A stretch of DNA of 64,000 bases from Caenimonas sp. SL110 (GTDB taxonomy: Bacteria; Pseudomonadota; Gammaproteobacteria; Burkholderiales; Burkholderiaceae_C): the NCBI RefSeq assembly GCF_001044395.1, contig NZ_JANU01000001.1, positions 1 to 64,000 of the forward strand, in the 5' to 3' direction. The notes beneath the pieces were generated by a model. That model saw only the letters and a program-made list of their open reading frames with translations. It did not search any database and was not told where the DNA came from. A program made the translations under genes and the position numbers. Positions 39,190 through 56,281 of the stretch are shown one piece after another; position 1 is the first letter of the stretch; every line of letters begins with the position of its first letter.

Positions 39190-39203
39190 CCTTCAGGGCG
39201 CCG

Positions 39204-40649
39204 TCATGCCTGGGTGTAGGCCGTCTTCACGATGGTGAAGAACTCCTGCGCATAACGGCCCTGCTCGCGTGGGCCGTAGCTGCTGCCCTTGCGGCCGCCG
39301 AATGGCACGTGATAGTCCACGCCGGCAGTGGGCAGGTTCACCATGACCATGCCGGCCTGCGAATGACGCTTGAAATGAGTCGCGTACTTCAGGCTGGTGG
39401 TGGCGATGCCCGACGAAAGGCCGAACTCGGTGTCGTTGGCGACGGCCAGGGCCTCGTCGTAGTCGCGCACGCGAATGATGCTGGCCACGGGGCCGAACAC
39501 TTCTTCGCGGTTGATGCGCATGGCCGGGAGGGTGTCGGCAAACAGGGTCGGTTCGACGAAGTAGCCTTCCTTGCCGCTACCCGTGTGGCAGGCGATGCGC
39601 TGGCCGCCGGCCACAAGCCGGCCGCCTTCGCTGCGGGCGATGTCAATGTACTTCAGGTCCTGTTCCATCTGCGACCGGCTGGATGCCGGGCCGATGTCGG
39701 TTCCGGCAGTCAGCGCATCGCCGACCTTCAGGCTGGCCATGCGCGCAGCCATGGCTGCGATGAAACGGTCATGGATGCCCTCGGTGACGATCAGCCTGCT
39801 CGAAGCCGTGCAGCGCTGGCCCGTGGAAAAGAATGCACTCTGCACGCACAGCTCGACTGCCTGCTGCAAGTCCGCGTCGTCCAGCACCACTTGCGGGTTC
39901 TTGCCACCCATCTCCAGTTGCACCTTCTTGCCGTGTTCGGCGCACTGCACCGCGATGCGGCGGCCGACTTCCACCGACCCGGTAAAACTCACGGCTGCAA
40001 TGCCGGGGTGCGTGACAAGCCGGTCGCCGATCACGCTGCCGCGACCCATCACCAGGTTGAAGACGCCCGCCGGGATGCCGCTGCGGTGAATGATCTCTGC
40101 CAGTGCCCAGGCCGAGCCGGGCACGAGATCCGCTGGCTTGAACACGACGCAGTTGCCGAATGCGAGTGCCGGTGCGATCTTCCACGCGGGAATCGCGATC
40201 GGAAAATTCCACGGCGTGACCAGGCCCACCACACCGATGGGTTCGCGCGTGATCTCCACGCCCACACCGGGCCGCACCGAAGGTAATGTCTCGCCGGACA
40301 GGCGCACGCACTCGCCGGCGAAGAAGCGAAAGAGATAGCCGGCGCGAGTCACCTCGCCGATCGCCTCGGGGCGAGTCTTGCCCTCTTCGCGCGCCAGCAG
40401 GGCGCCGAGTTCATCGCGTCGCGCGTGGATCTCCATGCCGATCCGGTCGAGCGCATCGGCGCGTGCCTGTATGCCGCCGGTGCTCCAGGCCGGGAATGCA
40501 GCCTGCGCGGCAGCGACGGCCGCGTCGAGCTGGGCCACATCGGCCTGCGCGTACTCGCCGACGATGTCCGATGGATCGGATGGATTGGCGTTGACGCTGA
40601 AGCGCTCGTTGGGCACCCATTGGCCGGCGATGAGATTTGCGTAGGACAT
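39204..40649 (-). CDS. NAD(P)-dependent aldehyde dehydrogenase (semialdehyde type)
   Basis: A protein of 481 residues with all catalytic residues: Asn148 in TPWNFP, Lys171 in VVFKPADL, Glu246 in VQLEMGGKNP and the nucleophile Cys280 in STGQRCTASSR. The sequence looks most like the 2,5-dioxovalerate (alpha-ketoglutarate semialdehyde) and succinate semialdehyde group. It converts an aldehyde to the acid. The stop lies 14 bp before the ydiJ-like start. Together with YdiJ and the 2-hydroxyacid dehydrogenase this suggests breakdown of a hydroxy- or oxo-dicarboxylate. Confidence 0.9.
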   Translation of the reverse strand: MSYANLIAGQWVPNERFSVNANPSDPSDIVGEYAQADVAQLDAAVAAAQAAFPAWSTGGIQARADALDRIGMEIHARRDELGALLAREEGKTRPEAIGEVTRAGYLFRFFAGECVRLSGETLPSVRPGVGVEITREPIGVVGLVTPWNFPIAIPAWKIAPALAFGNCVVFKPADLVPGSAWALAEIIHRSGIPAGVFNLVMGRGSVIGDRLVTHPGIAAVSFTGSVEVGRRIAVQCAEHGKKVQLEMGGKNPQVVLDDADLQQAVELCVQSAFFSTGQRCTASSRLIVTEGIHDRFIAAMAARMASLKVGDALTAGTDIGPASSRSQMEQDLKYIDIARSEGGRLVAGGQRIACHTGSGKEGYFVEPTLFADTLPAMRINREEVFGPVASIIRVRDYDEALAVANDTEFGLSSGIATTSLKYATHFKRHSQAGMVMVNLPTAGVDYHVPFGGRKGSSYGPREQGRYAQEFFTIVKTAYTQA

Positions 40650-40654
40650 GATGT

Positions 40655-41608
40655 TCAGTTGACGCGGGTCAGCAGGGGCTTTCCCGAAAAATGGGCATCG
40701 GCGTTCTGCAGGAAGCGCACGACGGACGCATGGATGGCCTGCGGCGAGATGCCGCCTATGTGCGGCGTGAGCACCGCATTCTCGAATTCAAGCAGTGGCG
40801 CGGGCGGCGTCGGCTCGCCTTCATAGACGTCCAGCGCGGCGGCCCAGATGCGCTTGTCGCGCAGCGCGTCGGCGACCGCATTCGTGTCGACCAGCGTGCC
40901 GCGCGCCACATTGACCACGACGCCTTGCGGCCCCAGCGCATCGAGCACCTGCGCGTTGACGATGTGGTAGGTCGCCTTGCCGCCCGGCGCGGCGATGACC
41001 AGAAAGTCGCACCACTGCGCCAGGCTCACGATGTCGTCGAACCAGCGAAAGCCCGATTCGTCCTTGCGGTTGCGGCTGTGATAGCCGATCTCCATGTCAA
41101 AGCCCTGCGCCCGCTTTGCGACCTTGCGGCCGATGGCGCCCAGCCCGAAGATGCCCATCTTGCGGCCAGAGACATGGGGCGGGCGCGGAATGTCATCACG
41201 CCACAACCCCGTGCGTACGCCACTGTTGAGAAACGGAATGCGGCGCACGGCCGCAAGCAGGATCGCCATCGCGTGGTCTGCCACCGCGTCGTCGTTGGTG
41301 CCAGCCGCATTGCACACCGGGATGCCGCGCGCACTCGCCGCGTCGATGGCCACGTTCTCGAAGCCCACGCCCACGGTGCAGATCAGCTCCACCTTGGGCA
41401 GGGCTGCGATCTCTTGCGGCAAGAGGCCGTTCGTGCCGTTGGTCAGCACGACGCGGATCTCGTTGCCGCGCGCTGCAATCTGCGCAGCGCCATTGGAGCG
41501 ATCGGCGCCCAGGCCTTCGTTCGGCGCATAGATCATGTCGAATTGCTCCGACACGAGCGCGCGATGTTCATCGGAAAGATAGACGAGTACGAGTAGCGTG
41601 GGTTTCAT
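40655..41608 (-). CDS. D-2-hydroxyacid dehydrogenase (NAD-dependent)
   Basis: A protein of 317 residues with Rossmann motif GIFGLGAIGRKVAKRA (153-168), Arg236 in VNVARGTLVD, Glu265 in DVYEGEP and His283 in TPHIGGIS: the Arg-Glu-His triad of D-isomer hydroxyacid dehydrogenases. It reduces a 2-oxoacid or oxidises its D-hydroxy form; glyoxylate/hydroxypyruvate-type substrates are common. It lies 5 bp before the aldehyde dehydrogenase gene and behind a Bug gene in the same array. Confidence 0.9.
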   Translation of the reverse strand: MKPTLLVLVYLSDEHRALVSEQFDMIYAPNEGLGADRSNGAAQIAARGNEIRVVLTNGTNGLLPQEIAALPKVELICTVGVGFENVAIDAASARGIPVCNAAGTNDDAVADHAMAILLAAVRRIPFLNSGVRTGLWRDDIPRPPHVSGRKMGIFGLGAIGRKVAKRAQGFDMEIGYHSRNRKDESGFRWFDDIVSLAQWCDFLVIAAPGGKATYHIVNAQVLDALGPQGVVVNVARGTLVDTNAVADALRDKRIWAAALDVYEGEPTPPAPLLEFENAVLTPHIGGISPQAIHASVVRFLQNADAHFSGKPLLTRVN

Positions 41609-41648
41609 GCTTGGCTGCGAGGTATCGGGATAGGTGGCAGTGTGGAGG

Positions 41649-42617
41649 TCAGTCGACCTTGGCGCCGGACAGCTTGACCAGCTTGCCCCACTTCTCGATT
41701 TCGGAGGCGAGCACCTTCTTGAACTCGGCGGGGCTGTTGCCCACCGGGGTCGAGCCCTGGTCGGCCAGCGTCTTCCTGACGGCCGGGTCCTGCAGCACCT
41801 TGCGAATCGCTGCGTTCAGCTTCGTGACGACGTCAGCAGGCGTGCCGGTGGGTGCGAAGACGCCGTTCCACAAGACCACTTCATAGCCCGGCAGCACTTC
41901 GCCAATCGCGGGCACGTTGGGCACGCGCGGCGAGCGCCTGGCCGTCGTGATGCCCAGCGGACGCAGCTTGCCGGTGTCGATGTACGGCAGCACTTCGACC
42001 AGCGGCGAGAACACCGCCTGGATCTGGCCGGCCAGCAGGTCGGCATTGGCCGGAGCGCCGCCCTTGTAAGGCACGTGCACCATCTCGCCGCCAGCGAGGT
42101 TGTTGAACAGCGCGCCCGACAGGTGCTGCGATGTGCCGTTGCCTGCGGAGCCGAAGTTGACCGGTGCCTTCCTGGCCTTGACGTAGTCGACGAACTCCTT
42201 GAGCGTCTTGGCGGGCACGTCGTTGTTCACCATCAGCACGTTGGGGATCAGCGCAACTTGAGAGACGGGGATCAGGTCCTTGTTGAGGTCGAACCCCATG
42301 TCGGCGTAGAGCGTCACATTGGTCGCGATGGTGCTGGTGTGCATCAGCAGTGTGTAGCCGTCTGCCGGTGCGCGAGCCACGAAAGCCGAGCCGATGTTGC
42401 CGCCGGCGCCGGCCTTGTTGTCGATGACCACGCGCTGGCCCAGCACGCCGCTGAGCTTTTCGGCCAGCATGCGCGCCGTGGTGTCGGTGCTGCCGCCGGG
42501 TGACAGCGGAACGACGAGCGTGATCGGCTTTTCGGGCCAGCCGGCCGCGTGGGATGCGAAGCCGCATGCCGCGAATGCGAGGGCTGCGGCGGTCTTGATG
42601 AATGTGGAGCGTTGCAT
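41649..42617 (-). CDS. Bug-family (TctC-like) periplasmic solute-binding protein
   Basis: A protein of 322 residues with signal peptide MQRSTFIKTAAALAFAACGF then ASHAAGWPEKPIT. The Bug signatures are ITLVVPLSPGGSTDTTARML, PADGYTLLMHTSTIATN and MVHVPYKGGAPANADLLAGQ. Such proteins bind carboxylates and serve tripartite tricarboxylate transporters or act as orphan sensors. ATG 42617 is chosen because the signal peptide starts there. It lies inside the minus-strand catabolic array, 28 bp behind the DUF1185 gene. No tctA or tctB permease gene lies in the window. Confidence 0.92.
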   Translation of the reverse strand: MQRSTFIKTAAALAFAACGFASHAAGWPEKPITLVVPLSPGGSTDTTARMLAEKLSGVLGQRVVIDNKAGAGGNIGSAFVARAPADGYTLLMHTSTIATNVTLYADMGFDLNKDLIPVSQVALIPNVLMVNNDVPAKTLKEFVDYVKARKAPVNFGSAGNGTSQHLSGALFNNLAGGEMVHVPYKGGAPANADLLAGQIQAVFSPLVEVLPYIDTGKLRPLGITTARRSPRVPNVPAIGEVLPGYEVVLWNGVFAPTGTPADVVTKLNAAIRKVLQDPAVRKTLADQGSTPVGNSPAEFKKVLASEIEKWGKLVKLSGAKVD

Positions 42618-42645
42618 GAGGAGTGGACTACTTCTTGAAAAAAAT

Positions 42646-43227
42646 TTAGCGCTGGCCGTCGCCGACCTTGATCTCGGAGGCACGCAGGCCGCCCAGGCGT
42701 TCATGCACGCGGGTGCCGGTGGACATGACAAGCGCATAGAGCAGCTCGTCGGCGCGCGGGCCGTCGATGGTGCCGACTTCCATCGTGGTGAAGTGGCTGC
42801 GCACGTAGCACGCCTCGATATGGTGAAGCGGAATCTGCAGGCGCGTGCCGGCAACTGCGACGACCTTGGCCGCCGGAACAATCGACTTGGCCCGTGGCAG
42901 GCACGAGCGCATCGGATAGCCGCCTGCGATATGCCAGATCGCGCCGTGCTCGAGTTCGCCGTCAAGGCCCACGATGGCGCCCTTGCCGTAGGCCTCGATC
43001 TTGTCGGCGCCGCCCAGTGCTTCGATCAGTTCGGGAACCAGCTTGTTGGCCATCTCGGTTGCGTCCTTGACGAACGGCTGGAGGTCTTCCACATAGCGCC
43101 CTGCATAGGGGTTCTTCAGGATGACGGCGATGGAACCCATCTTGATGGGAACGTCACGTGCGGGGCCGCCTTCGTGATAGATGGATTCGACGTTGAGCAG
43201 CTTTTTGCGGATCTGGACGAGGGACAT
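42646..43227 (-). CDS. DUF1185 / 'amino acid synthesis' family protein
   Basis: A protein of 193 residues of the AA_synth family (DUF1185), whose biochemical role is not established to my knowledge. Family-like stretches are ESIYHEGGPARDVPIKMGSI, VLKNPYAGRYVEDL, GKGAIVGLDGELEHGAIWHI and TTMEVGTIDGPRADELLYAL. No signal peptide or membrane segment is visible. It lies between the beta-hydroxyacid dehydrogenase and Bug genes, so it belongs to the same catabolic array. Orthologues I remember also sit in metabolic clusters of Burkholderiales. Confidence 0.82.
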   Translation of the reverse strand: MSLVQIRKKLLNVESIYHEGGPARDVPIKMGSIAVILKNPYAGRYVEDLQPFVKDATEMANKLVPELIEALGGADKIEAYGKGAIVGLDGELEHGAIWHIAGGYPMRSCLPRAKSIVPAAKVVAVAGTRLQIPLHHIEACYVRSHFTTMEVGTIDGPRADELLYALVMSTGTRVHERLGGLRASEIKVGDGQR

Positions 43228-43276
43228 GTGGGTAACTCCGGGATGAATGTGAATGAGGTGGAGGCAGGGGGCTGGG

Positions 43277-44167
43277 TCAGGCGGCCGGCTTTTCGCCGAA
43301 CTGCACGCCAGCCCATTGCTCGAAATGGCGGATAGGGAACACGTTGTCCTTGTCGCCGTCGCCTTGCGTCATGGCGAATGCGAGAAACTGGCGGGCGGCG
43401 GGGCTCACGAACAGCGGCGCGCCGAGTTTCTCGGCCTCGTCGATGCACATCTTGATGTCCTTGTGCAGCAGCTCGGTGGTGAACCGCACCGGGAAGCTGC
43501 GGTCCAGCACGCACTGCGGAATGCGTTCCAGCGTGGCGAATGAGCGGCCGCTCGACACATTGATCACGTCGAGCATGGTCTTGGCGTCCAGGCCTGCCTT
43601 GACGCCGTAGACCAGCGTCTCCAGGCTGGCGACCATGCTGGTGGCGTACAGCGTGTTGTTGATGATCTTCATCGTCTGGCCCAGGCTGGGGTCGGCGCCC
43701 AGATAGAAGATCTTGTTGCCGATCACGCGCAGCAGCGGCTCGATTTCTTCGTAGGCCTGCGACGGGCCGGCGGGCATCACGGCGAGCGCGCCTTTCTCGG
43801 CATTGGCAGTGCCGCCGCTGACGGGTGCGCCAACCAGGGAAATATTCCTGGCTTTGAGCAGGGCTTCAACTTCCTTGGTCACCGAAGGGCCGGTGGTGGA
43901 CAGGTCGACGACGATGCGCACCTTGCTGCCCTGCGCAACCTCCGCTGCAACCTCGGCGACGACGCGCGGCAGCGGCAGGCACAGCAGCACGATTTCCACG
44001 GTGCTGGCGAGTTCCTTTGCGTTCGCTGCGGCTATCGCGCCCTTGGCCACGAGGCGATCCTGCGCGGCGGCGCTGCGGTCATTGACGTGCAGTTCGTGGC
44101 CGGCGGCGAGCAGGCGCGTGCCGAAGTGCACGCCGATGTTGCCGAGACCGATCAATCCGATTTTCAT
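43277..44167 (-). CDS. NAD(P)-dependent beta-hydroxyacid dehydrogenase
   Basis: A protein of 296 residues of the 3-hydroxyisobutyrate / tartronate semialdehyde reductase family. The nucleotide motif is GLIGLGNIGVHFGTRLL, the substrate loop VDLSTTGPS then GAPVSGGTANAEKGAL, and the catalytic lysine is Lys167 in GQTMKIINNTL. It opens the minus-strand array, and a copy of the shared 17-bp operator lies 128 bp upstream of its start. An AGGAAG ribosome site precedes ATG 44167. Confidence 0.9.
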   Translation of the reverse strand: MKIGLIGLGNIGVHFGTRLLAAGHELHVNDRSAAAQDRLVAKGAIAAANAKELASTVEIVLLCLPLPRVVAEVAAEVAQGSKVRIVVDLSTTGPSVTKEVEALLKARNISLVGAPVSGGTANAEKGALAVMPAGPSQAYEEIEPLLRVIGNKIFYLGADPSLGQTMKIINNTLYATSMVASLETLVYGVKAGLDAKTMLDVINVSSGRSFATLERIPQCVLDRSFPVRFTTELLHKDIKMCIDEAEKLGAPLFVSPAARQFLAFAMTQGDGDKDNVFPIRHFEQWAGVQFGEKPAA

Positions 44168-44294
44168 GAGGCTCTTCCTGGGTTCCTGGGTGTGGAGTCA
44201 CAAGCCGCGCGATACAGGCAGCGTGCGACTTGCGGCGTGGGACGAAAGATAGGCTTGCACGCGTTGCAGGGCCAGTGCTGTTTGTGGCCCTGCA

Positions 44295-44311
44295 TATGCA
44301 GTTGTGTTAAT
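44295..44311 (-). promoter_or_regulatory. Putative LysR operator upstream of the minus-strand catabolic array
   Basis: On the minus strand the sequence reads ATTAACACAACTGCATA, matching RTTAAC-N3-A-N3-CATA exactly. It lies 128 bp upstream of the beta-hydroxyacid dehydrogenase start, in the same orientation. It contains the T-N11-A spacing usual for LysR sites. The rest of the 165-bp spacer 44168-44332 holds nothing else I can name. Confidence 0.6.
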
Positions 44312-44332
44312 CGCTCATGCAATGGCTGGCGC

Positions 44333-45004
44333 TCAGGGCGCCAGGTAACCCTTTTGCCTGAGCATGGCGTCGATCCAGGATGTGTCGAGGGTTCCCGCTG
44401 CAATCGCCTTGAGCGTTTGCTCCTCCTGCGAGTGCTTTTCTTCTGCGGCAGCGCAGATGGCAGCGGCCTGTTCCAGCGGGATACACAGCACGCCATCGCC
44501 ATCGCCCAGCATGATGTCGCCGGGGTTCACGACCATGCCGTCCAGGCTCACGGCAACATTGATCTGGCCGGGGCCGTCCTTGTAGGGGCCGCGGTGCGAG
44601 ACACCGGCCGCAAACACCGGAAGCGATGCCTTGCGCAGGAAGTCGGCGTCACGCACCGACCCGTTGATGACGAGACCCGCGATGCCGCGCGAAGCGGCGT
44701 AGCTGGTCATCAGCTCGCCAATGATCGCGTTGGTCAGGTCGCCGCCTGCGTCCACCACGACGATGTCGCCGGGCTTTGCCAGGTCGAGCGCCTTGTGCAC
44801 GAAGAGGTTGTCACCGGGGCGGGTCTTGACGGTGAGTGCAGTGCCCGCCATCGGGCTGCCGTCGTGCATGGGCCGCAGGCGCGGACCTCCTGCGGTCAGG
44901 CGCATCATCATGTCGCTGATGTTGGCAACGGGGATGCGGCGAAGGCGCTCGACGAGTGCGGGGTCGGCTTGTACGTGCCGCTCGAAAATGCAGGGCTGGC
45001 TCAT
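44333..45004 (-). CDS. RraA-like / HMG-type aldolase family protein
   Basis: A protein of 223 residues of the RraA-like family, which includes 4-hydroxy-4-methyl-2-oxoglutarate and 4-carboxy-4-hydroxy-2-oxoadipate aldolases and oxaloacetate decarboxylases. Conserved parts are GTALTVKTRPGDNLFVHKAL, GELMTSYAASRGIAGLVING-SVRD and GDIMLGDGDGVLCIP, which hold the Arg and Asp used for substrate and metal binding. It would split a 2-oxo-4-hydroxy acid to pyruvate plus a fragment. It has its own operator copy at 45111-45127 and no clear Shine-Dalgarno. Confidence 0.85.
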   Translation of the reverse strand: MSQPCIFERHVQADPALVERLRRIPVANISDMMMRLTAGGPRLRPMHDGSPMAGTALTVKTRPGDNLFVHKALDLAKPGDIVVVDAGGDLTNAIIGELMTSYAASRGIAGLVINGSVRDADFLRKASLPVFAAGVSHRGPYKDGPGQINVAVSLDGMVVNPGDIMLGDGDGVLCIPLEQAAAICAAAEEKHSQEEQTLKAIAAGTLDTSWIDAMLRQKGYLAP

Positions 45005-45110
45005 GCGTGGATTCCATCAACAAAAGGAGGCAGGCCCACCGGTGTGGCGGGCCATTTGTTGAATCTATCCGCGCAATCACCCGTGGACGTGTGTTGTTTG
45101 TGGGGTGCGG

Positions 45111-45127
45111 GATGCAGTCAGGTTAAT
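45111..45127 (-). promoter_or_regulatory. Putative LysR operator upstream of the RraA-like gene
   Basis: Minus-strand sequence ATTAACCTGACTGCATC, matching RTTAAC-N3-A-N3-CATA except the last base. It is 107 bp upstream of the RraA-like start and overlaps the end of the LysR coding sequence. Orientation is the same as the gene behind it. Confidence 0.5.
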
Positions 45128-46046
45128 CGCCCCGGTCATTGCCCCGGTCATCGCGCCGGTCGTGCGCCGCCTGCTGGCGCAACAGTTCGATGAACTTTTC
45201 GGCGTGCGTGCGGCCGTTGTCGAAAACCGATCGCACGATGCTCGGCTCCAGCCAGATGTCCACCGACAGCGGCAGCGTTTGCAGGTCGGTCCAGCCCATG
45301 CCCTCGGCGGTGAACTCATCCACGATGGCCACGCCTGCGCCAGATCGCGCGAGCGAACACGCCATGTCGCTCTGGTGGATGTTGATGCGCGTGGTGAGCT
45401 CGACGCCCGCCTTCTGGAAGGCCGATGCGATGAGCTGGCCGAAAGGAATGCCCGGGTCGTGCGAGATGACGGGGTAGCGCGCGATCTCCTCCAGCGGAAC
45501 CGCCGTCATCTGCGCCAGCTGATGCCCGCGCGGCACCACGCACACCATGCGCCCGCGGGTGAACGGCTCGACCCGCAGGTTGGGGTGGTCGATCGGGTGC
45601 ACCGAGACGCCCAGGTCCACCTTGTTGCTCAAAATCTCTTGCGGCATGTTGTTGAGCAGCGTGGTGCGAAAGTTCACCCGGATCTTCGGGTAGCGCTGCA
45701 CGAAGGCCGCAATCGCGCGCGACATGATCCCGCGCGACAGGCTGGGGCTTGCTGCGATGCGCAGCGTGCCCGACGGTCCCTGCGCCAATGCGCGCGCGAA
45801 CTCATCAACCTTGACGGCTTGCTGGTAGAACTCGTCCACCTCGGTGAACAGGGCCTCGCCCTCGGGCGTGGGCACCAGCTTGCCCTTGACCCGGTTGAAC
45901 AGGGTCAGGCCCAGCGTCTGCTCGGTGTGCGAAATGATGCGGCTGACCGCCGGCTGCGAAGCGAATAGCAATTGAGCGGCAGCCTTGATCGAGCCGGTCA
46001 GCATCACTGCCCGGAACACCTCCATTTGCCTGAGTCTGAATTTCAT
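45123..46046 (-). CDS. LysR-family transcriptional regulator (first of a divergent pair)
   Basis: A protein of 307 residues. The N-terminal winged HTH reads RLRQMEVFRAVMLTGSIKAA then FASQPAVSRIISHTEQTLG, followed by the LysR ligand-binding domain. It is very similar along its whole length to the divergent LysR protein encoded from 46124 (same FRAVMLTGSI, KGKLVPTPEGEALFTEVD, ILSNKVDL and RGRMVC blocks), a sign of duplication. The C-terminal tail HDRRDDRGNDRGD comes from three 12-bp DNA repeats and is not family-like. It probably controls the operator series in this region. Confidence 0.92.
   Translation of the reverse strand: MKFRLRQMEVFRAVMLTGSIKAAAQLLFASQPAVSRIISHTEQTLGLTLFNRVKGKLVPTPEGEALFTEVDEFYQQAVKVDEFARALAQGPSGTLRIAASPSLSRGIMSRAIAAFVQRYPKIRVNFRTTLLNNMPQEILSNKVDLGVSVHPIDHPNLRVEPFTRGRMVCVVPRGHQLAQMTAVPLEEIARYPVISHDPGIPFGQLIASAFQKAGVELTTRINIHQSDMACSLARSGAGVAIVDEFTAEGMGWTDLQTLPLSVDIWLEPSIVRSVFDNGRTHAEKFIELLRQQAAHDRRDDRGNDRGD
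45129..45164. repeat. Three tandem 12-bp repeats in the end of the LysR gene
   Basis: Units GCCCCGGTCATT (45129-45140), GCCCCGGTCATC (45141-45152) and the weaker GCGCCGGTCGTG (45153-45164) stand head to tail. They encode the charged tail of the LysR protein and probably arose by slippage. Confidence 0.75.
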
Positions 46047-46073
46047 TGCCGCAAAGTATCCGCTATCGCCGGG

Positions 46074-46090
46074 TATGCGTTGCTGTTAAT
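46074..46090 (-). promoter_or_regulatory. Putative LysR operator between the divergent LysR genes
   Basis: Minus-strand sequence ATTAACAGCAACGCATA matches RTTAAC-N3-A-N3-CATA exactly. It lies in the 77-bp spacer between the two LysR starts (46046 and 46124), so binding could control both genes. This is the expected place for autoregulation of LysR proteins. Confidence 0.6.
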
Positions 46091-46123
46091 CGCCCTGTGA
46101 ACTTGCCGTCTAAACTCGCGCAC

Positions 46124-47005
46124 ATGACATTGCGGCTGCGACAAATGGAAGTCTTCCGGGCAGTGATGCTGACCGGCTCGATCAATGGCGCCTCCCGGAT
46201 GCTGTTCATTTCGCAGCCTGCGGTGAGCCGCATCATCTCCCACATGGAGCAGGGGCTGGGCTACCAGCTGTTCAACCGCACCAAGGGCAAACTCGTGCCC
46301 ACGCCCGAGGGCGAGGCCCTGTTCACCGAGGTCGACGATTTCTACCAGCACGCGATGCGGGTCAGCGACTTTGCGGCCGACCTCGCGCACGGCCCTGCCG
46401 GCACGCTGAACATCTCGTCGAGTCCCTGCCTGAGCTACCGCATCGTGCCGCGTGCGATTGCGCGCTTCGTCGATCGCTACCCGCGCATCCGGGTCAACTA
46501 CCACACGACCCTGATGCACATGATGGCGGCCGAGGTGCTGAGCAACAAGGTGGACCTGGTGGTCTCGGTGTTGCCGCTGGAGCATCCCCACCTGAAAGTG
46601 GAGACCTTCCGGCGCGGGCGCATGGTCTGCGTGATGCCCGAGGGTCACGAACTTGCGGCGGCAGAGACCATCACCTTCAGCGATCTGTCATCGGTGCCGC
46701 TGATCACGCACAACCCCAGCATCCAGTTCGGCAAGCTGATCGAATCCGCATTTGCACAAGCCGGGTTCACACCGGCACCTCGCATCCATGTGCTGCAGAC
46801 CGAGATCGCTTGTTCGCTGGTGCGTGCGGGCGCGGGGCTGGCGATCGTCGATGAATACACGGCTGCGGGTGGGCCGTGGTCTGGCATCGTGATCAGGCCG
46901 CTGGCCCACGAGATCCCGCTCGCGCCCAGCATCGCCCGCACCGTGTTCGACCGGCACGGCACCCACGCGCAGAAGTTCATCGAGATATTGACGGCGCTGG
47001 ATTGA
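46124..47005 (+). CDS. LysR-family transcriptional regulator (second of a divergent pair)
   Basis: A protein of 293 residues. The HTH is RLRQMEVFRAVMLTGSINGA then FISQPAVSRIISHMEQGLG, with the usual ligand-binding domain. I judge by eye that well over half of its residues match the divergent LysR at 45123-46046. ATG 46124 (MTLRLRQMEVF) is chosen to match that paralogue; the upstream frame is intergenic. It stands before the Bug/CaiB/crotonase operon and is a likely regulator of it. The effector is unknown. Confidence 0.92.
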   Translation: MTLRLRQMEVFRAVMLTGSINGASRMLFISQPAVSRIISHMEQGLGYQLFNRTKGKLVPTPEGEALFTEVDDFYQHAMRVSDFAADLAHGPAGTLNISSSPCLSYRIVPRAIARFVDRYPRIRVNYHTTLMHMMAAEVLSNKVDLVVSVLPLEHPHLKVETFRRGRMVCVMPEGHELAAAETITFSDLSSVPLITHNPSIQFGKLIESAFAQAGFTPAPRIHVLQTEIACSLVRAGAGLAIVDEYTAAGGPWSGIVIRPLAHEIPLAPSIARTVFDRHGTHAQKFIEILTALD

Positions 47006-47017
47006 GCCAATACGGCT

Positions 47018-47100
47018 GTCATTGCGGACTCGATCCGCAATCCATGTCTTCGACGGCACGTGCCGCTTCGCGGTGGATGCCGGATCAAGTCCGGCATGAC
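47018..47100. repeat. Dispersed inverted-repeat element downstream of LysR
   Basis: Two 27-nt arms face each other: the left from 47018 (GTCATTGCGGACTCGATCC...) and the right ending at 47100 (...TCAAGTCCGGCATGAC). Comparing arm with reverse complement gives 22 of 27 identical. Between them is a perfect palindrome CGGCACGTGCCG (47054-47065). A related fragment stands at 27-44. In the 303-bp spacer 47006-47308 it probably ends the LysR transcript. A further half-copy CCCGGCATGACAA lies at about 47111. Confidence 0.75.
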
Positions 47101-47185
47101 AACCTGTTCGCCCGGCATGACAAACGGGCCCTCCGCACTTACCCGTACATGCTAAGCATTCATCCGGGCCGTAAACCCACCACCT

Positions 47186-47202
47186 GTTAACACAAGGTCA
47201 TA
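47186..47202 (+). promoter_or_regulatory. Putative LysR operator upstream of the Bug/CaiB/crotonase operon
   Basis: GTTAACACAAGGTCATA matches RTTAAC-N3-A-N3-CATA exactly, 106 bp upstream of the Bug gene start. A second partial copy, GCGGTTAACGGCATGC, lies about 40 bp nearer the gene (47225-47240) and could be a weaker activation site. Both point toward the operon. Confidence 0.6.
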
Positions 47203-47308
47203 GGCTGCGTGCAATTGAGCAATCGCGGTTAACGGCATGCCTCCATAAGATGGATCGAACGTAGCGCGGACCTACCGTGCACGGAAAGTCGATCAGGAGA
47301 CACAGGAC

Positions 47309-48256
47309 ATGAAGTTCAGCCGCAGAACCGTTTGCTTCCTTCTGGGAAGCGCCATGCTCGCAGGCACCGCTGTCGCGCAGACCTGGGAGCCCACCAAGCC
47401 GATCCAGCTGATCGTGGGCTTCAGCCCCGGCGGTGGCACCGACGTGATCGCCCGCGCCATCGCGGCGGGCTCGCAGGAGGTGATGCCCCAGCCGATGGTC
47501 GTCATCAACAAGCCGGGTGCATCCGGCGTGATCGCCGCCGACGCCGTGTCCAGGGCCGCGCCCGACGGCTACACGCTGCTGGTCGCCGGTGGCAGCGAGA
47601 GCACCTCGTTGCCCAATCACCAGCAGGTGTCGTACAAGCAATCGAGCTTTCGCCCCATCGGCCACGTCATCCGGCTTCGCATGATGGTGGTGGTCAAGAA
47701 CGACGGCAAGATCAAGAACTTTGCCGACCTGGTGAAGTACGCCAAGGCCAACCCCGGCAAGATGGCCTATGGCACATCGGGCGTGGGCAGCCTGACGCAT
47801 TCGATGATGCTCATGGTCAACAAGGCAGCGGGTATCGATACCTTCCACGTGCCCTACAAGGGCGATGCGGAAGTGGTGACCGGCATCCTGGGCGACCAGG
47901 TGCAGATCGGCCTGGGGTCGCCCGATCAGTTCAAGAGCTGGATCGACACCGGCAAGCTGATACCGCTGACGCTCAGCTCCAACGACCGGTTTCCCGGCCT
48001 GCCGAATGTGCCCACGCTCAAGGAACTGGGCTACGACATCTACCTGGAAAACATGAAGGGCGTTGTCGCGCCGGCGGGCTTGCCCGACGAGATCTACACC
48101 TACCTCAACGAGAAGCTGCGCAAGGCGATGGAGACCGAGGGTTTCCGCAACATCGTCAACAAGAGCAACTTTGAAGTGCAGTACATGGACGGCCCGATGT
48201 TCGGTCGCACCATGGCCAGCATGTCCAACGGCATCGCCGCCGCCTTGAAGAAGTAA
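47309..48256 (+). CDS. Bug-family (TctC-like) periplasmic solute-binding protein
   Basis: A protein of 315 residues with signal peptide MKFSRRTVCFLLGSAMLAGT then AVAQTW. Bug signatures are IQLIVGFSPGGGTDVIARAI, KPGASGVIAADAVSRAAPDG and FHVPYKGDAEVVTGILGDQ. An AGGAGA ribosome site precedes ATG 47309. It is followed by a CoA-transferase and a crotonase gene, so its ligand is probably a carboxylate that is activated to a CoA ester inside the cell. Confidence 0.92.
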   Translation: MKFSRRTVCFLLGSAMLAGTAVAQTWEPTKPIQLIVGFSPGGGTDVIARAIAAGSQEVMPQPMVVINKPGASGVIAADAVSRAAPDGYTLLVAGGSESTSLPNHQQVSYKQSSFRPIGHVIRLRMMVVVKNDGKIKNFADLVKYAKANPGKMAYGTSGVGSLTHSMMLMVNKAAGIDTFHVPYKGDAEVVTGILGDQVQIGLGSPDQFKSWIDTGKLIPLTLSSNDRFPGLPNVPTLKELGYDIYLENMKGVVAPAGLPDEIYTYLNEKLRKAMETEGFRNIVNKSNFEVQYMDGPMFGRTMASMSNGIAAALKK

Positions 48257-48280
48257 GACAGCAAGACGAGACGCAAGACG

Positions 48281-49525
48281 ATGACCAATGAGACACAGGC
48301 AACGGCGAGCGCCACGGCGCTGCCGCTGTCGGGGATGCGCATTCTCGACCTGACGGTGATGACGGCAGGCCCGGTGGGCACCATGATGCTGGGCGACCTG
48401 GGCGCCGATGTCATCAAGATCGAGGAACTGCAAGGCGGCGAGTTGTCGCGCAGCATGGGCACCATGTATGTGGGCGTGGAAAGCGCCAACTTTCTTTCGC
48501 AAAACCGCAACAAGCGCAGCGTACGGCTGGACTTGAAGAAAGCCGAAGGACGCGAGGCATTCCTGCGCATGGCCGCGCAGGCCGACGTGGTGACCGAGAA
48601 CTTCCGCCCCGGCACGCTCGACCGGTTGGGCATCGGGTACGAGGCGCTGCGCAAGGTCAATCCGCGCATCATCTTCGCCAGCATTTCCGCGTTCGGCCAG
48701 ACCGGACCGTACGCGCATCTGCCTGCCAACGACCCGATCGTGCAGGCGCTCAGCGGCCTCATGCACATGACCGGCGATGCCGATGGCGACCCGGTTCGCG
48801 TGGGGCATCCTTACCCGGACTTCGGCGCGGCCGCGTTGCTCGCGTTCGGTGTGTGCGCGGCGCTGTTGCATCGCGAGCGCACGGGGCAGGGCCAGTCGCT
48901 GGACCTGTCGCTGCTCAATGGAACGATCTTCAGTGCCATTCCCCGCGACGGTGAAACGCTGCGCTCGGGCAAGGCACCTCCGCGCCTGGGCAGCGGCCAT
49001 CCGGCGTTCGTGCCGTATCGCAATTACAAGGGCAGCGATGGTGCGCCGTTTTTCCTGGCGTGCTTCAACGAGAAGTTCTGGGGTTCGGTGTGCGACGCGG
49101 TAGAGCGGCCCGACCTGATGACCGACGCGCGCACGGTCAATAACGTCGCGCGTTGCAACAACCGCGAATTCGTCGATGCGCAGCTTGAAGCCATCTTCGC
49201 CACCCGCACGACCGATGAATGGCTGGAGCGCCTGGCGCGATTCAACGTGCCGTCAGCGCGCGTGCAGGACCTGAACCACGCTCTGCGCAGCGACCCGCAG
49301 GTGCGCCACAACAACACCATCGTGGAAGTGGAGCATCCCACGGCGGGCACGGTGGAAACGCTCGCGCTGCCGGTGAACTTCCACGCGACGCCGGCCGAAT
49401 ACCGCAGGCCGCCACCGCGCCTGGGCGAGCACAGCGTGGAGGTGCTGCGCGAGTTCGGCTTCACCGGCGAAGAGGTCGATGCGCTGCTGGCAAGCCAGGC
49501 CGTGGCGGGGCTCAATACCCCATGA
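48281..49525 (+). CDS. CaiB/BaiF family (type III) CoA-transferase
   Basis: A protein of 414 residues of the formyl-CoA transferase family. It has LSGMRILDLTVMTAGPVGTM, GADVIKIEELQGG, NRNKRSVRLDLKKAEGR and NFRPGTLDRLGIGYE, and the catalytic aspartate is probably Asp180 in GHPYPDFGAAAL. It moves CoA from a donor ester to a carboxylic acid. It overlaps the next gene by 4 bp (ATGA) and lies 24 bp after the Bug gene. Confidence 0.93.
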   Translation: MTNETQATASATALPLSGMRILDLTVMTAGPVGTMMLGDLGADVIKIEELQGGELSRSMGTMYVGVESANFLSQNRNKRSVRLDLKKAEGREAFLRMAAQADVVTENFRPGTLDRLGIGYEALRKVNPRIIFASISAFGQTGPYAHLPANDPIVQALSGLMHMTGDADGDPVRVGHPYPDFGAAALLAFGVCAALLHRERTGQGQSLDLSLLNGTIFSAIPRDGETLRSGKAPPRLGSGHPAFVPYRNYKGSDGAPFFLACFNEKFWGSVCDAVERPDLMTDARTVNNVARCNNREFVDAQLEAIFATRTTDEWLERLARFNVPSARVQDLNHALRSDPQVRHNNTIVEVEHPTAGTVETLALPVNFHATPAEYRRPPPRLGEHSVEVLREFGFTGEEVDALLASQAVAGLNTP

Positions 49526-50298
49526 CAGCGCCGGTGCTGCTCGTCGAAGAGCCGGCACCTGGTGTTCGGTTGCTCAGGCTCAATCGGCCCGAAGCGCGCA
49601 ACGCGCTCAGCATGGCCCTGCGGCGCGAGCTCGTGCGATGCATCGCGCAGGCCAGCGATGACGCGGCTGTGCGCGTGGTCGTGATCGCAGGCAACGAGCG
49701 TGCATTTGCGGCCGGCGCGGACATCAAGGAGATGGCCAACGCGAGCACCGTGGACATGATGGCGCGCGGCGTGCTCGGCCTGTGGCGCGCAACCGCGTCC
49801 TGCACCAAGCCTGTCATCGCCGCCGTTCGCGGTTATGCGCTGGGTGGTGGCTGCGAACTGGCGCTCTTGTGCGACATGGTCATCGCCAGCGAGACTGCGC
49901 GTTTCGGCCAGCCCGAGATCCGCATCGGCATCATTCCCGGCGGCGGCGGCACCCAGCGGCTGGTTGCTGCCATCGGCAAGCACCGCGCGATGAAGTACCT
50001 GCTCACGGGCGCGATGTTCTCCGGGCGTGAAGCGTTCGAGATGGGCCTGGCCAGCGAAGCCGTGCCCGACGACCAGGTCGATGCGCGCGCTGTCGAACTG
50101 GCCTGCGAGATCGCAGCCCTGTCGCCGCTTGCGGTGCAGCAGTTGAAAGACGTCGCGCTGCGTGGCATGGACCTTCCGCTGGACGCGGGGCTCGCGCTGG
50201 AGACCAAGGCGCTGCACCTGCTGTTTTCCACCGAAGACCAGAAGGAAGGCATGGCTGCGTTCATCGAAAAGCGGCCACCGAAATTCGAGGGGCGCTGA
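49522..50298 (+). CDS. Enoyl-CoA hydratase/isomerase family protein
   Basis: A protein of 258 residues of the crotonase fold. The oxyanion hole is formed by AFAAGADIKEM and GYALGGGCELALLCD; both catalytic glutamates are present (GGGCELAL and GQPEIRIGIIPGGGG). It probably hydrates an unsaturated acyl-CoA made by the preceding CoA-transferase. ATG 49522 is chosen because it overlaps the preceding stop and fits the family N-terminus; the frame extends upstream only within the other gene. Confidence 0.92.
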   Translation: MTAPVLLVEEPAPGVRLLRLNRPEARNALSMALRRELVRCIAQASDDAAVRVVVIAGNERAFAAGADIKEMANASTVDMMARGVLGLWRATASCTKPVIAAVRGYALGGGCELALLCDMVIASETARFGQPEIRIGIIPGGGGTQRLVAAIGKHRAMKYLLTGAMFSGREAFEMGLASEAVPDDQVDARAVELACEIAALSPLAVQQLKDVALRGMDLPLDAGLALETKALHLLFSTEDQKEGMAAFIEKRPPKFEGR

Positions 50299-50323
50299 TG
50301 CGCAATTGCCCTGCGCATCACGC

Positions 50324-50340
50324 GTTAACCGCAAGACATA
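50324..50340 (+). promoter_or_regulatory. Putative LysR operator upstream of the long plus-strand operon
   Basis: GTTAACCGCAAGACATA matches RTTAAC-N3-A-N3-CATA exactly. Read with the two following bases it is also a dyad, GTTA-N11-TAAC. It starts 91 bp upstream of the Bug gene start, in the same orientation. The spacer 50299-50414 shows no terminator. Confidence 0.6.
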
Positions 50341-50414
50341 ACACCCGCCCAAATACGCACTCGCCAACGAGCGGGTCGCTTCCTACGATCACCCCACCAC
50401 AAGGAGACAAGCAG

Positions 50415-51401
50415 ATGTTTCATCCGAATCGCCGCGCAGTTCACCGGGCCATCGCGCTCGCCAGCTTGCTGTGCGTCCTGGCGCCCGCCAGCGTACTTGC
50501 GCAAGCCGCATGGCCCAGCAAGCCGATCACGCTGATCGTTCCGTTTGCGCCCGGTGGCAGCACCGACGTGACGGGCCGCATGCTCGCCGCGAAGCTCAAG
50601 GACGAACTCGGGCAGACCGTCGTTGTCGAAAATCGCGGCGGCGCAGGCGGCAACCTGGGCGCCGACGCGGCCGCACGTGCTGCGCCGGACGGCCACACGC
50701 TGTTTCTCGCAACCAGCACCCATGTGACCAACATCAGTCTCTACAAGAAGCTCTCCTACGACTTCCAGAAAGACTTCGCGCCGGTCTCGCAGGTGGCCTT
50801 CATCCCCAATGCGCTGGCAATCAATGCCAAGGTGCCGGTGAACAACCTGGCCGAGTTCATGACCTACATCCGCGACCCGCGCAACGAGATGCGCTACGGG
50901 TCGGCAGGCAATGGCTCTTCGCTGCACATCGCAGGCGCGCTGTTCAACAGCATGGCCAAGGCGAACATGGTGCATGTGCCCTACAAGGGCAGCGGCCCTG
51001 CGATCGTGGACGTGCTGGGCGGCCAGATCGAAGCCATCTTCTCTCCGCTGGTCGATGTGTTGCCCCACATTCGCAGCGGCAAGCTCAAGGCGATCGGCGT
51101 CACGACCAAGGGCCGCTCGGACCAGTTGCCCGGCACACCCGCCATCAATGAGGGACTGGCCGGCTATGAGGTGACGTTGTGGAACGGCATCCTCGTTCCC
51201 GCCAAGACGCCGCCGGAAATCGTCGCACGCCTGAACACCGCCATCAACAAGATCCTGGCGCAGCCCGATACCAGGCGGCTGCTGGCCGAACAGGGTTCCG
51301 AGCCCGCACCCGGCACGCCCGCGCAGTTTCGCGACTTCATCGCCAAGGAAGTCCCGGTCTGGAAGCGCCTGGTCGAGTTGTCCGGCGCGACTGCAGACTG
51401 A
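50415..51401 (+). CDS. Bug-family (TctC-like) periplasmic solute-binding protein
   Basis: A protein of 328 residues with a signal peptide (AIALASLLCVLAPASVLAQA). Bug signatures are ITLIVPFAPGGSTDVTGRML, NRGGAGGNLGADAAARAAPD and MVHVPYKGSGPAIVDVLGGQ. It resembles the Bug protein at 41649-42617 in several blocks (for example SLYKKLSYDFQKDFAPVSQV against LYADMGFDLNKDLIPVSQV). An AAGGAGA ribosome site precedes ATG 50415. It opens the operon that runs to the MFS gene and is directly followed by another Bug gene. Confidence 0.92.
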   Translation: MFHPNRRAVHRAIALASLLCVLAPASVLAQAAWPSKPITLIVPFAPGGSTDVTGRMLAAKLKDELGQTVVVENRGGAGGNLGADAAARAAPDGHTLFLATSTHVTNISLYKKLSYDFQKDFAPVSQVAFIPNALAINAKVPVNNLAEFMTYIRDPRNEMRYGSAGNGSSLHIAGALFNSMAKANMVHVPYKGSGPAIVDVLGGQIEAIFSPLVDVLPHIRSGKLKAIGVTTKGRSDQLPGTPAINEGLAGYEVTLWNGILVPAKTPPEIVARLNTAINKILAQPDTRRLLAEQGSEPAPGTPAQFRDFIAKEVPVWKRLVELSGATAD

Positions 51402-51418
51402 ACCGAAAGCACCACACC

Positions 51419-52402
51419 ATGAAATCGTTGAACCGCCGTATTGTTTCCGCCGCGCTGCTCGCAGCGTGCGCCCCGTTCGCTGCGCAGGCCCAGGCGCCTG
51501 CGCCGAACTGGGCATCCAAACCCATCCGCATCGTCGTGCCGTTCGCACCGGGCGGCACCACCGACATCGTGGCCCGCATGATCGGCCAGCGCCTGGGCCC
51601 CGCGCTGGGCACAACGGTCGTGATCGACAACAAGCCCGGCGCCAACGGCATCATGGGCTCGGAAGTGGTGGCGCGCGCCCCCGCCGACGGCCATACGCTG
51701 GTCATCGTCGCACCGGGCCACGCGAGCAATGTCACGCTGTACAAGAAGCTGCCGTACGACACGCTGACCGACTTCGAGCCCATCTTGCTGCTGCTCACGC
51801 AGCCCAGTGTGCTGGTCGTGCATCCGTCGGTCCCGGTGACCAGCACCGCAGAGCTGATCAGGCGCGCGAAGGCGCAGCCCGGCATGGTGTCTTACGCCTC
51901 GGGTGGCAACGGTTCGTCGCAACATCTGGCCGCGGCCATGTTTGCCGACATGGCCGGCATTGAACTCGTGCATGTGCCGTACAAGGGCAGCGCCCCGGCA
52001 GAAGCCGACCTGCTGGGCGGCCAGGTCAACATGATGCTGGCGTCGATGGTGTCCGCGCTGCCGCAGGTCAAGTCCGGGCGGCTTCGCGCACTGGCCGTGA
52101 GTTCGGAGCGCCGCTCGCCTGCAGCACCCGACTTGCCCACGGTTGCGGAGGCCGGCGTGCCGGGTTACAGCGCGGTCGCATGGGCAGGCTTGCTCGCGCC
52201 CAAGGGCACGCCGCCGCAGACACTGGCGGCGCTCAACGCTGCGGTCACAAAAATCATGAACGAGCCCGAGGTCAAGGAAAAGCTGGCAGGGCTGGGCGCT
52301 GATTTCAGCCCCAATACGCCCAAAGGGTTCGACCAGTTCATCCGCTCGGAAATCACGCGCTGGGGTGAGGTGATCCGCCGCTCCAACCTGAAGGTCGATT
52401 GA
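51419..52402 (+). CDS. Bug-family (TctC-like) periplasmic solute-binding protein
   Basis: A protein of 327 residues with signal peptide SAALLAACAPFAAQAQAPAP. Signatures are IRIVVPFAPGGTTDIVARMI, NKPGANGIMGSEVVARAPAD and ELVHVPYKGSAPAEADLLGG. It lies 17 bp behind another Bug gene and overlaps the following CoA-transferase gene by one base (TGATG). Two adjacent Bug genes without a permease suggest either different ligands or a shared membrane component encoded elsewhere. Confidence 0.92.
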   Translation: MKSLNRRIVSAALLAACAPFAAQAQAPAPNWASKPIRIVVPFAPGGTTDIVARMIGQRLGPALGTTVVIDNKPGANGIMGSEVVARAPADGHTLVIVAPGHASNVTLYKKLPYDTLTDFEPILLLLTQPSVLVVHPSVPVTSTAELIRRAKAQPGMVSYASGGNGSSQHLAAAMFADMAGIELVHVPYKGSAPAEADLLGGQVNMMLASMVSALPQVKSGRLRALAVSSERRSPAAPDLPTVAEAGVPGYSAVAWAGLLAPKGTPPQTLAALNAAVTKIMNEPEVKEKLAGLGADFSPNTPKGFDQFIRSEITRWGEVIRRSNLKVD

Positions 52403-54015
52403 TGAGCGGTGCGCGCGTCATGGAAGCTGCGCAGGCTGCTGCGCTGGTTCGATCGGGCGACACGGTCGCGATCTCGGGGGTCGTGTCGCTGCTGTCCACC
52501 GAAGCCGTGCTGCGCGCGCTGCAAGAGCGATTTGCGGATACCGGCGAACCTGCAGGCCTGACCGTCATCTGCCCATGCCGCACCGGCTGGTCTGTCGTAG
52601 GCGAAACGACAGGGCTGGAGCACCTGGCCGCGCCAGGCATGGTCAAGACGCTGATTGCGTCTTCGTACAACGTGCGCGATACGCCCACGCTGATGGCGTC
52701 CGTGATGGACGGGCGCATCGCAACCTATGTGCTGCCGATGGGCGTGATGTACCGGTGGCTGCGTGAATGTGCGGCACGCTCACCCGGATTGCTCACGCAT
52801 GTTGGGCTGAACACGTATTTCGACCCCGACGGCGGCGACGTGCGCGTGCATCCGTCGGTGCCGCCGCTGGACCTGCTGCAGCGGATGGAGATCGACGGCG
52901 AGCCCTGCATGCTGCTGCGCAGCAAGCGCATCGATGTGGCGATCGTGCGTGGCTCGGTGGCCGATGAGCACGGCAACATCAGCCTGGAAGACGAGCCGAT
53001 CTCCGGCAGCGTGCGTCATCTTGCAATGGCGGCACGCACCAGCGGCGGCCGCGTGATCGCCGTGGTCAAGCGCATCGTGGCCGCAGGCAGTCTGCATCCG
53101 CGCAACGTGGAGATTCCGGGCATCTGGGTCGATGCGGTGGTGGTGGACGCGGATGCCATACAGACACAGCTGGGCGATGAGCCCGCCTTCACCGGCGCAA
53201 AGCGCGAAGCGCCGATGCCGCAGCCGATGGCGCTGGACCAGCAAAAGATCATCGTGCGCCGCGCCGCGATGGAACTGCAGGCGCGCGACATCGTGAACCT
53301 CGGCGTGGGCATGGGCTCGCAGTTGCCGAGCGTGCTGGCCGAAGAAGGCGCGCTGGGTGACATCACCTTCAGCGTCGAGCACGGCGCGCTGGGCGGGATT
53401 CCGGCGATGGGCGTGCCGGGGCAGACCGGTGCGTTCGGCGCCCACTTCAACCCCGACGCCATCGTCGATGCCGCCGACCTGATGGATTTCTATCACGGCG
53501 GCGGTCTCGACGCGACGCTGCTGGGCTTTGCGCAAATCGATGGACAGGGCAGCGTGAACGTCGGCCGCTTCGACGGCAACATTCGCGGCCCGGGCGGCTT
53601 CGTCGATATCACCTATCGCACCCGCAAGGTGCTGCTTTGCGGCACGCTCAACAGCGGCGGCCTCCAGGTGCGCGTGGACCGTTCGTCGACCGGCACACCC
53701 ATCCTGCACATTGAACGCGAAGGGCGCCACCGCAAGCTGCTTGCCAACCTGGAGCAGGTCAACCTGCACGGACCGAGCGCGTTCGAGCGCGGCACGCATG
53801 TGCGGGTCATCACCGAGCGCTGCGTCTTTGCGCTGGACGACCACGGCCTGGTCCTGATCGAAGTGGCACCGGGCATCGACATCGATACCCAGATCCGTCC
53901 GCACCTTGAGTTTGCCTTGCGTGTCTCGCCCGATTGCAAGGCGATGGACGCGCGGCTTTTTTCTTCCGAACCCATGGGCCTGCAACTGCCGGCCCGACCA
54001 GAAACACTGAACTGA
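52402..54015 (+). CDS. Family I CoA-transferase (propionate/acetoacetate CoA-transferase type)
   Basis: A protein of 537 residues with alpha and beta parts fused in one chain, as in propionate CoA-transferase. The N-terminal part has SGDTVAISGVVSLLSTEAV, and the C-terminal part DIVNLGVGMGSQLPSVLAEE followed by the catalytic glutamate Glu326 in TFSVEHGALGGIPAMG. It transfers CoA between a short-chain acyl-CoA and a carboxylate. It is translationally coupled to the Bug gene before it and followed 15 bp later by the GH105-like gene. Confidence 0.9.
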   Translation: MSGARVMEAAQAAALVRSGDTVAISGVVSLLSTEAVLRALQERFADTGEPAGLTVICPCRTGWSVVGETTGLEHLAAPGMVKTLIASSYNVRDTPTLMASVMDGRIATYVLPMGVMYRWLRECAARSPGLLTHVGLNTYFDPDGGDVRVHPSVPPLDLLQRMEIDGEPCMLLRSKRIDVAIVRGSVADEHGNISLEDEPISGSVRHLAMAARTSGGRVIAVVKRIVAAGSLHPRNVEIPGIWVDAVVVDADAIQTQLGDEPAFTGAKREAPMPQPMALDQQKIIVRRAAMELQARDIVNLGVGMGSQLPSVLAEEGALGDITFSVEHGALGGIPAMGVPGQTGAFGAHFNPDAIVDAADLMDFYHGGGLDATLLGFAQIDGQGSVNVGRFDGNIRGPGGFVDITYRTRKVLLCGTLNSGGLQVRVDRSSTGTPILHIEREGRHRKLLANLEQVNLHGPSAFERGTHVRVITERCVFALDDHGLVLIEVAPGIDIDTQIRPHLEFALRVSPDCKAMDARLFSSEPMGLQLPARPETLN

Positions 54016-54030
54016 ACAGGAGTCTTACCC

Positions 54031-55065: not shown

Positions 55066-55098
55066 GTCCGCCGAACAGACAAAAGGGAAGGACACGAC

Positions 55099-56280: not shown

Positions 56281-56281
56281 G

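Follow-up and report, generated by a model that had tools for sequence, protein, structure and literature searches.

Introduction

What reads a 17-base-pair sequence that recurs around a pair of divergent LysR-type regulator genes, and does it tie the genes on either side into one regulon or two? The question is raised by a 64,000-nucleotide stretch of the Caenimonas sp. SL110 genome (contig NZ_JANU01000001.1, positions 1 to 64,000; hereafter the window), in which an initial annotation, made without database searches, picked out five copies of RTTAAC-N3-A-N3-CATA and proposed that they join both arms of a catabolic region in one LysR regulon. Our analysis leads to a reading that we consider quite probable: the 17-mers would be the recognition sites of two sister regulators, LysR A and LysR B, which are encoded head-to-head between two predicted catabolic arms, with four of the copies opening promoter modules, and with A serving chiefly the left arm and B the right.

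Clustering of the 17-mer in the window

The coordinates, strands and sequences first given for the five copies proved right, four matching the pattern exactly and one with a single mismatch. On the minus strand, ATTAACACAACTGCATA (44295..44311) precedes the HIBDH-like operon of the left arm, ATTAACCTGACTGCATC (45111..45127) precedes an RraA-like gene, and ATTAACAGCAACGCATA (46074..46090) lies, as had been noted, between the two divergent LysR genes. On the plus strand, GTTAACACAAGGTCATA (47186..47202) precedes a TctC-CaiB-ECH (enoyl-CoA hydratase) operon of the right arm and GTTAACCGCAAGACATA (50324..50340) a second right-arm operon. All five are indeed co-oriented with the gene behind them. 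The claim that every copy lies in a promoter spacer is not wholly true of the one at 45111–45127, which overlaps the LysR A stop codon (45123–45125), and the distance from site start to start codon at the four operon sites, put at 90–130 base pairs, is corrected to 91–144 bases. The single mismatch falls on the last base of the 45111 copy; it is a conserved variant, since the identical 17-mer occurs in an orthologous Ramlibacter locus (L022). The T-N11-A spacing that had pointed to LysR proteins (T at position 3, A at position 15) is present in five of five copies. Their right half-site is degenerate, and the full dyad is seen in relatives.

Could the five copies be a chance cluster or a small dispersed repeat? 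The pattern specifies only 11 positions, and across the genome (4,721,438 bases in 74 contigs) it finds eight places with up to one mismatch, five of them the window copies, against 20 for the reversed control pattern. There is therefore no genome-wide enrichment, and the signal lies in the clustering and in the exact matches. On both strands of the window, the four exact copies and the one-mismatch copy compare with 0.14 expected, and none of 100 shuffles reached five. A genome-wide scan with the pattern places all four exact matches inside the window cluster; the reversed pattern has none anywhere. A consensus variant derived from relatives, WTAACNNNANSNYATA, occurs at three places in the genome, all in the window, and its reverse at one. 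Spacer bases vary among the copies, unlike those of a repeat, and the sites are conserved at orthologous loci. Given the window and genome counts, and the reversed-pattern and Markov controls here and below, we reject the chance and repeat explanations, to which we would assign a negligible probability.

The three off-cluster places with one mismatch (L006–L008) were rejected as sites, their motif matrix scores being below 5. Two of 36 same-genus genomes, G024 and G036, have a single exact match each, that in G036 being the ortholog, and G003 has one match to the reversed pattern. The 24 genomes from other families of the order hold 15 exact matches in eight genomes, compared with 36 for the reversed pattern.

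The motif in related genomes

The sample of relatives comprised 80 loci (L009–L088), plus 29 further loci alongside the window's own. L022 and L090 (genome G036) do not differ in their site sequences or in their LysR row and counted as a single source; L022 was kept among the 80 loci for pattern counts and excluded from training of the seeded matrix, from unseeded expectation maximisation and from the count of −10 boxes. Allowing one mismatch, the pattern matched 51 times in 42 of the 80 loci (four exact), compared with five matches for the reversed pattern and eight, five and two in Markov nulls. No more than 250 bases separated 33 of the 51 matches (in 33 loci) from the outside of a LysR end, which was true of none of the five control matches.

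Unseeded expectation maximisation on 200 bases each side of the LysR gene in 70 nonredundant loci, with the window and L022 excluded, recovered the same motif on the other strand as ATTAACCnAAnGTTATA (24 bits, gamma 0.84), at a log-likelihood of 584.8 compared with 77.3 on shuffled input. It reads as the dyad ATAAC-N5-GTTAT, whose T3 and A15 give T-N11-A. The unseeded matrix finds at least one site at a score of at least 11 in 73 of the 80 loci, a figure that is partly circular because the matrix was trained on 70 of them; some of these sites lie far from the LysR gene. L022 is itself without a site at that score, yet has two by the pattern. In L009–L033 the sites stand 82–199 bases ahead of where the tblastn match to HIBDH, RraA, TctC or ACAD begins (up to 397 in some further loci), and the comparison of orthologous promoters that had been proposed as a check thus finds the motif kept before orthologous operons.

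The motif also follows LysR relatedness. Among same-genus loci, all eight with the best-matching LysR (L091–L098, 34–42% identity) hold a site, compared with two of the next 20 (L099–L118, 26–36% identity), so that the motif thins with LysR distance. The sites in L091–L098 resemble ATAAC-N5-GTTAT, five of the eight lying within 60 bases of the LysR start. Because these more distant LysRs carry like sites, the dyad may be a subfamily-wide operator.

The sites might instead be bound by some other transcription factor whose gene lies elsewhere, which would leave the LysR genes as bystanders. The binding protein is, after all, deduced from sequence, and in five loci (L020, L021, L029–L031) there are operon-front sites although the LysR gene is 1.5–6.5 kb off. 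Such a factor would leave unexplained the sites in 73 of 80 relatives' loci, the 33 loci with a match right beside LysR, the rarity of sites near distant LysRs and a T-N11-A dyad that fits LysR proteins, and we think it very unlikely. The reading of the 17-mers as LysR operators is, in sum, strongly supported by the de novo motif beside relatives, by orthologous operon fronts and by a fixed distance to the −10 box, described below.

Within the window, a longer matrix, seeded with the original pattern and trained on relatives' sites from beyond the window, gives the five copies the highest scores (27.0, 23.8, 17.4, 16.1 and 15.6; next place 10.7). The unseeded matrix gives 20.1 at 47186, 11.8 at 46074, 11.6 at 50324 and 6.5 at 44295.

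A promoter module behind the probable operators

When promoters were aligned on the site (a column table of 28 hand-picked sites), conservation extended well beyond the 17-mer: CCCC after the site, A29, GCA at 34–36, T38-G40-C42 and a TAnnAT-like box at 61–66. The initial annotation had caught only the upstream quarter of this module. Of 66 nonredundant relatives' sites, 43 have a TAnnAT that begins at position 61, counted from the site start, compared with a mean of 0.15 at positions 18–57 and of 0 at 70–111, the next highest single position having five.

Both right-arm promoters match the −10 box exactly at positions 61–66. Behind 47186 stand a second conserved block, ATTGAGCAA, with a −35-like TCGCGG (47214..47228, plus strand, positions 29–43) and TAAGAT (47246..47251, plus); behind 50324 stand AATACGCAC with a −35-like TCGCCA (50352..50366, plus, positions 29–43) and TACGAT (50384..50389, plus). 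The left-hand promoters nearly match. At 44295 the block AAACAGCAC with a −35-like TGGCCC (44269..44283, minus, positions 29–43) is followed by the −10-like TATCTT (44246..44251, minus, positions 61–66), its position set by relatives, and at 45111 the block AAACAACAC with a −35-like ACGTCC (45085..45099, minus, positions 29–43) is followed by the −10-like TAGATT (45062..45067, minus, positions 61–66). The left-arm spacers can be aligned between the window and L022 across the operator, a ACAAACAGCACTCG-like block and a TAGATT-like box. The 46074 copy has GGCAAA at 61–66, that is, no −10 box. A 73-column promoter model and its alignment were built from 43 of the 66 relatives' sites, selected by hand; when it was run on the genome (150 of 515 candidates scored), its only hits at E below 0.1 were 50323–50392 (28.8 bits) and 47186–47252 (27.2 bits).

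LysR recognition sites typically lie near −65. A −10 box at 61–66 and a start about seven bases after it would put the dyad centre near −64 relative to the predicted start, and the conserved A29 and GCA at 34–36 mark a candidate for the activation site near −35. The alignment displays the module; how it would work we infer as follows. Four of the five copies would open a module of about 66 bases, with the operator dyad at about −64, the second conserved block at positions 29–37 acting as activation site, and then a weak −35 and the −10 at 61–66. On arrival of the inducer, probably an acid of the pathway or a metabolite of it, a tetramer on the operator would contact RNA polymerase. The left arm and the RraA gene would answer chiefly to LysR A and the two right-arm operons to LysR B, and the fifth copy, between the LysR genes, would serve autoregulation.

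Separately, the 47186 promoter contains a second GTTAAC followed at longer spacing by CATAAG (47224–47250), which might be a second half-site.

Two sister regulators and two arms

LysR A (45123..46046, minus strand) and LysR B (46124..47005, plus strand) each carry an N-terminal HTH_1 and a C-terminal LysR_substrate domain, both well above cut-off, and are thus LysR-type proteins. They are 62% identical over 289 residues. The first 65 residues, the helix-turn-helix, agree at 52 of 65 positions compared with 111 of 200 for residues 90–289, suggesting conserved operator recognition alongside diverged inducer sensing. The presumed recognition helix, SQPAVSRIISH, does not differ between A and B, and the proline of SQP in both presumably aligns with the residue of BenM and CbnR that contacts the T of T-N11-A. 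The best matches among solved structures were CysB (72 bits), a Rubisco operon regulator, OccR, and CatM and BenM chains, none of them close. A residue contacting the T of T-N11-A is described for BenM and CbnR (PMC12609908).

In a tree of 59 LysR rows (from the window, L009–L061 and L090–L093), LysR A falls in a 25-row clade (96/92) and LysR B in a 6-row clade (100/97). A-type genes (L014–L030 and L033) adjoin left-arm genes, in most cases HIBDH, AA_synth, TctC and D-2-hydroxyacid dehydrogenase, and in some loci additionally RraA, aldehyde dehydrogenase and YdiJ. Among the relatives' loci compared, right-arm genes at 64% identity or more occur only in B loci. The B-type gene accompanies the right arm in L011 and L013 (the latter also with two left-arm genes 8–10 kb further), both arms in L009 and L010, and left-arm genes in L012. 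One contig of Bordetella sp. BOR01 carries a locus of each type, the B locus L011 and the A locus L027, which lie about 0.5 Mb from each other and each have sites. A search of 22 relatives' genomes for the GH88-like protein of the right arm gave four strong matches, in three of the five B-bearing genomes (G061, G062, G063) and in one of 17 with A only (G068), with two further A-only genomes matching weakly. With the marker strong in one A-only genome of the 17, A and B probably served different arms.

The promoters fall along the same lines. Class models built from 27 hand-selected sites of other genomes (19 A, 8 B) assign 25 of 27 correctly with the locus left out, compared with 21 of 27 for the first 21 columns alone; L022 was scored with and without. 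Without it, the window's left promoters are classed as A (25.8 vs 22.6 and 30.7 vs 10.2) and its right promoters as B (18.7 vs 15.0 and 28.3 vs 19.2), so that the 44295 operator belongs to an A dialect and those at 47186 and 50324 to a B dialect. Tree and synteny point to a pair of ancestral modules, one of LysR A and the left arm, the other of LysR B and the right arm or both arms. On the strength of tree, synteny and promoter classes, the window is likely to hold two sister regulons joined head-to-head.

The initial annotation had instead joined both arms in one regulon, and its most complete form would have both LysRs binding all five sites interchangeably, as homo- or heteromers, with either inducer switching both arms, much as for BenM and CatM. 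The identical recognition helix speaks for such sharing, as does the common operator consensus of both clades in other genomes; moreover, a single B-type LysR accompanies genes from both arms in L009 and L010, with sites before each arm in L010. Against it stand the two dialects that follow the arms, the distribution of the GH88-like marker and ten residue differences between A and B between positions 21 and 48. The LysR operator reading holds up well, a single regulon is less sure given the arm-specific promoter classes and the A/B synteny, and we consider full sharing somewhat doubtful. For the two sister regulons that we prefer, cross-binding of A and B to each other's operators would nonetheless be likely, because the recognition helix is the same and the operators are similar, and cross-talk between them is possible.

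The fifth copy, with no promoter module behind it, is 27 bases away from the start codon of LysR A and 33 bases away from the LysR B start codon. It scores about zero on both class models over 47 columns, and an autoregulatory role is predicted from its position. In L011 a site (13.1) lies 244 bases upstream of LysR. A bolder scenario, which we think unlikely, is that the two ancestral modules, found about 0.5 Mb apart in BOR01, have fused here into a dual-input switch in which paralogs read a near-identical operator, sense different pathway acids and together govern about 19 genes, while a shared operator that arose anew between the LysR genes lets each control the other. No second head-to-head A/B locus was found in 399 family genomes (E ≤1e-100, six candidates per genome scored), of which only the window's own had two matches to LysR B and three others had one.

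Several results weigh against the view that the 17-mers are LysR A and B operators at the head of arm-specific promoter modules. L009 has no site at score 5 before its RraA gene or its two right-arm TctC genes. With the unseeded matrix, L018, L032, L057, L060, L078 and L085 have no site at a score of at least 11; in the window, 45111 scores below 5, 44295 reaches 6.5, and an unrelated place at 60625 (11.7) outranks 50324. With the seeded matrix, the top score among 40 Markov copies of the window (16.7) exceeds those of both 45111 and 44295. The copy between the LysR genes is poorly matched elsewhere, 24 of the 25 A/B orthologs in L009–L033 having nothing at score 4 or more within 200 bases upstream and L028 holding the sole, weak counterpart (10.8). 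As to the module, collapsing the relatives' sites to 25 loosely linked clusters leaves the −10 at position 61 in six first members (control offsets: mean 0.07, maximum 3), which indicates that relatedness inflates the 43 of 66 but does not create it. The 73-column model gives 10.4 and 5.3 bits for the left promoters and 5.7 bits for the inter-LysR site, while six non-site places in the window reach 5.7–8.6 bits; a consensus sigma-70 scan of the region found no promoter, with 1.1 expected. Finally, 47186 is assigned to the A type when only the first 21 columns are used, and the A/B promoter classes are partly confounded with the descent of the promoters themselves.

Genes of the two arms

The RraA-like, aldolase-family gene occupies 44333..45004 (minus strand). 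The left arm (35117..44167, minus) encodes HIBDH-like, PF06684 AA_synth, TctC-like receptor (by sequence likeness), D-2-hydroxyacid dehydrogenase, aldehyde dehydrogenase, YdiJ (D-2-hydroxyglutarate dehydrogenase) and Ldh_2 proteins, and is predicted to form one operon because its genes are closely spaced. YdiJ exceeds the curated cut-off for D-2-hydroxyglutarate dehydrogenase (1535 vs 1350 bits); the other arm enzymes are named at family level. The first right-arm operon (47309..50298, plus) encodes a TctC receptor, a CaiB-type CoA-transferase and an enoyl-CoA hydratase, and the second (50415..60518, plus) a TctC receptor, a second TctC-like gene (by likeness), a CoA-transferase, a GH88-like protein, an acyl-CoA dehydrogenase, an FRD/SDH-like flavoprotein, CaiB and, from its sequence, an MFS-like protein. 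The TctC receptors, CoA-transferases and dehydrogenases together suggest that the pathway substrate may be an acid or its CoA ester.

Four TctC-type receptor genes lie in the region (41649–42620, 47309–48256, 50415–51401 and about 51416–52402), two recognised by domain scan and two by sequence likeness; no TctA or TctB membrane genes were noticed beside them, though no search was aimed at them. Further observations concern the surroundings. A motif-like ATTAACAGATACGTATT (60625–60641, minus, score 11.7) sits 3′ of the MFS-like gene, with no exact pattern match. Between LysR B and the right arm, a GC-rich palindrome (ggatcaagtccggcatgacaa and its partner, 47010–47125) resembles a dispersed extragenic repeat. 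Beyond the left arm, 30722–35103 encodes a cyanophycin-synthetase-like protein and two FAD (DAO) oxidoreductases.

Discussion

By analogy, the closest known system is the BenM/CatM pair of Acinetobacter baylyi. These are two paralogous LysR-type regulators with overlapping functions, whose Site 1 contains T-N11-A within ATAC-N7-GTAT, and whose tetramer shifts between promoter-near sites on effector binding (PMC6628147). The window resembles it in having two LysR paralogs and a T-N11-A dyad. A and B are 62% identical and have the same recognition helix, but the window has two operator dialects, and overlap of the regulons here is conjecture. It differs in its dyad, ATAAC-N5-GTTAT, in regulator genes that abut head-to-head, and in its hydroxyacid, CoA and TctC genes where BenM and CatM control benzoate and catechol genes. 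The CatR/ClcR/TfdR-type motif AkACC-N5-GGTAT offers a second comparison, for which like motifs in homologous regulators and possible cross-regulation are reported (PMC6449761); it shares with our motif an inverted repeat with N5 and T-N11-A, but its half-site is ACC/GGT rather than AAC/GTT and the LysR subfamily is a different one, the best NCBIfam model for A and B being PRK11013, below its cut-off. Redundant operons with a regulator pair are also described, that pair being one LysR and one MarR protein (PMC12016517), unlike the two LysRs here.

E. coli LysR was considered as an identity for the two proteins and rejected. The best-scoring NCBIfam model for both A and B is PRK11013, which we take to cover E. 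coli LysR, and their scores of 171.2 and 165.9 bits fall short of its curated equivalog cut-off of 288. In E. coli K-12 the lysA-lysR spacer has no motif match at score 6, the one hit of that stretch (11.7) lying inside lysA. Our search of open-licence literature found no described motif for this LysR subfamily, nor a paper on this cluster.

On the reading preferred here, the mode of gene control would be ordinary and the head-to-head layout unusual. For a LysR subfamily found across Burkholderiales, the analysis supplies a probable operator together with its promoter layout and a list of targets, and a fixed distance from operator to −10 box would make regulon prediction in these genomes practical. 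It could also point to the substrates of uncharacterised TctC receptors. The head-to-head pair itself would be a natural test of whether paralogs share their operators or keep them separate once their regulons have been joined.

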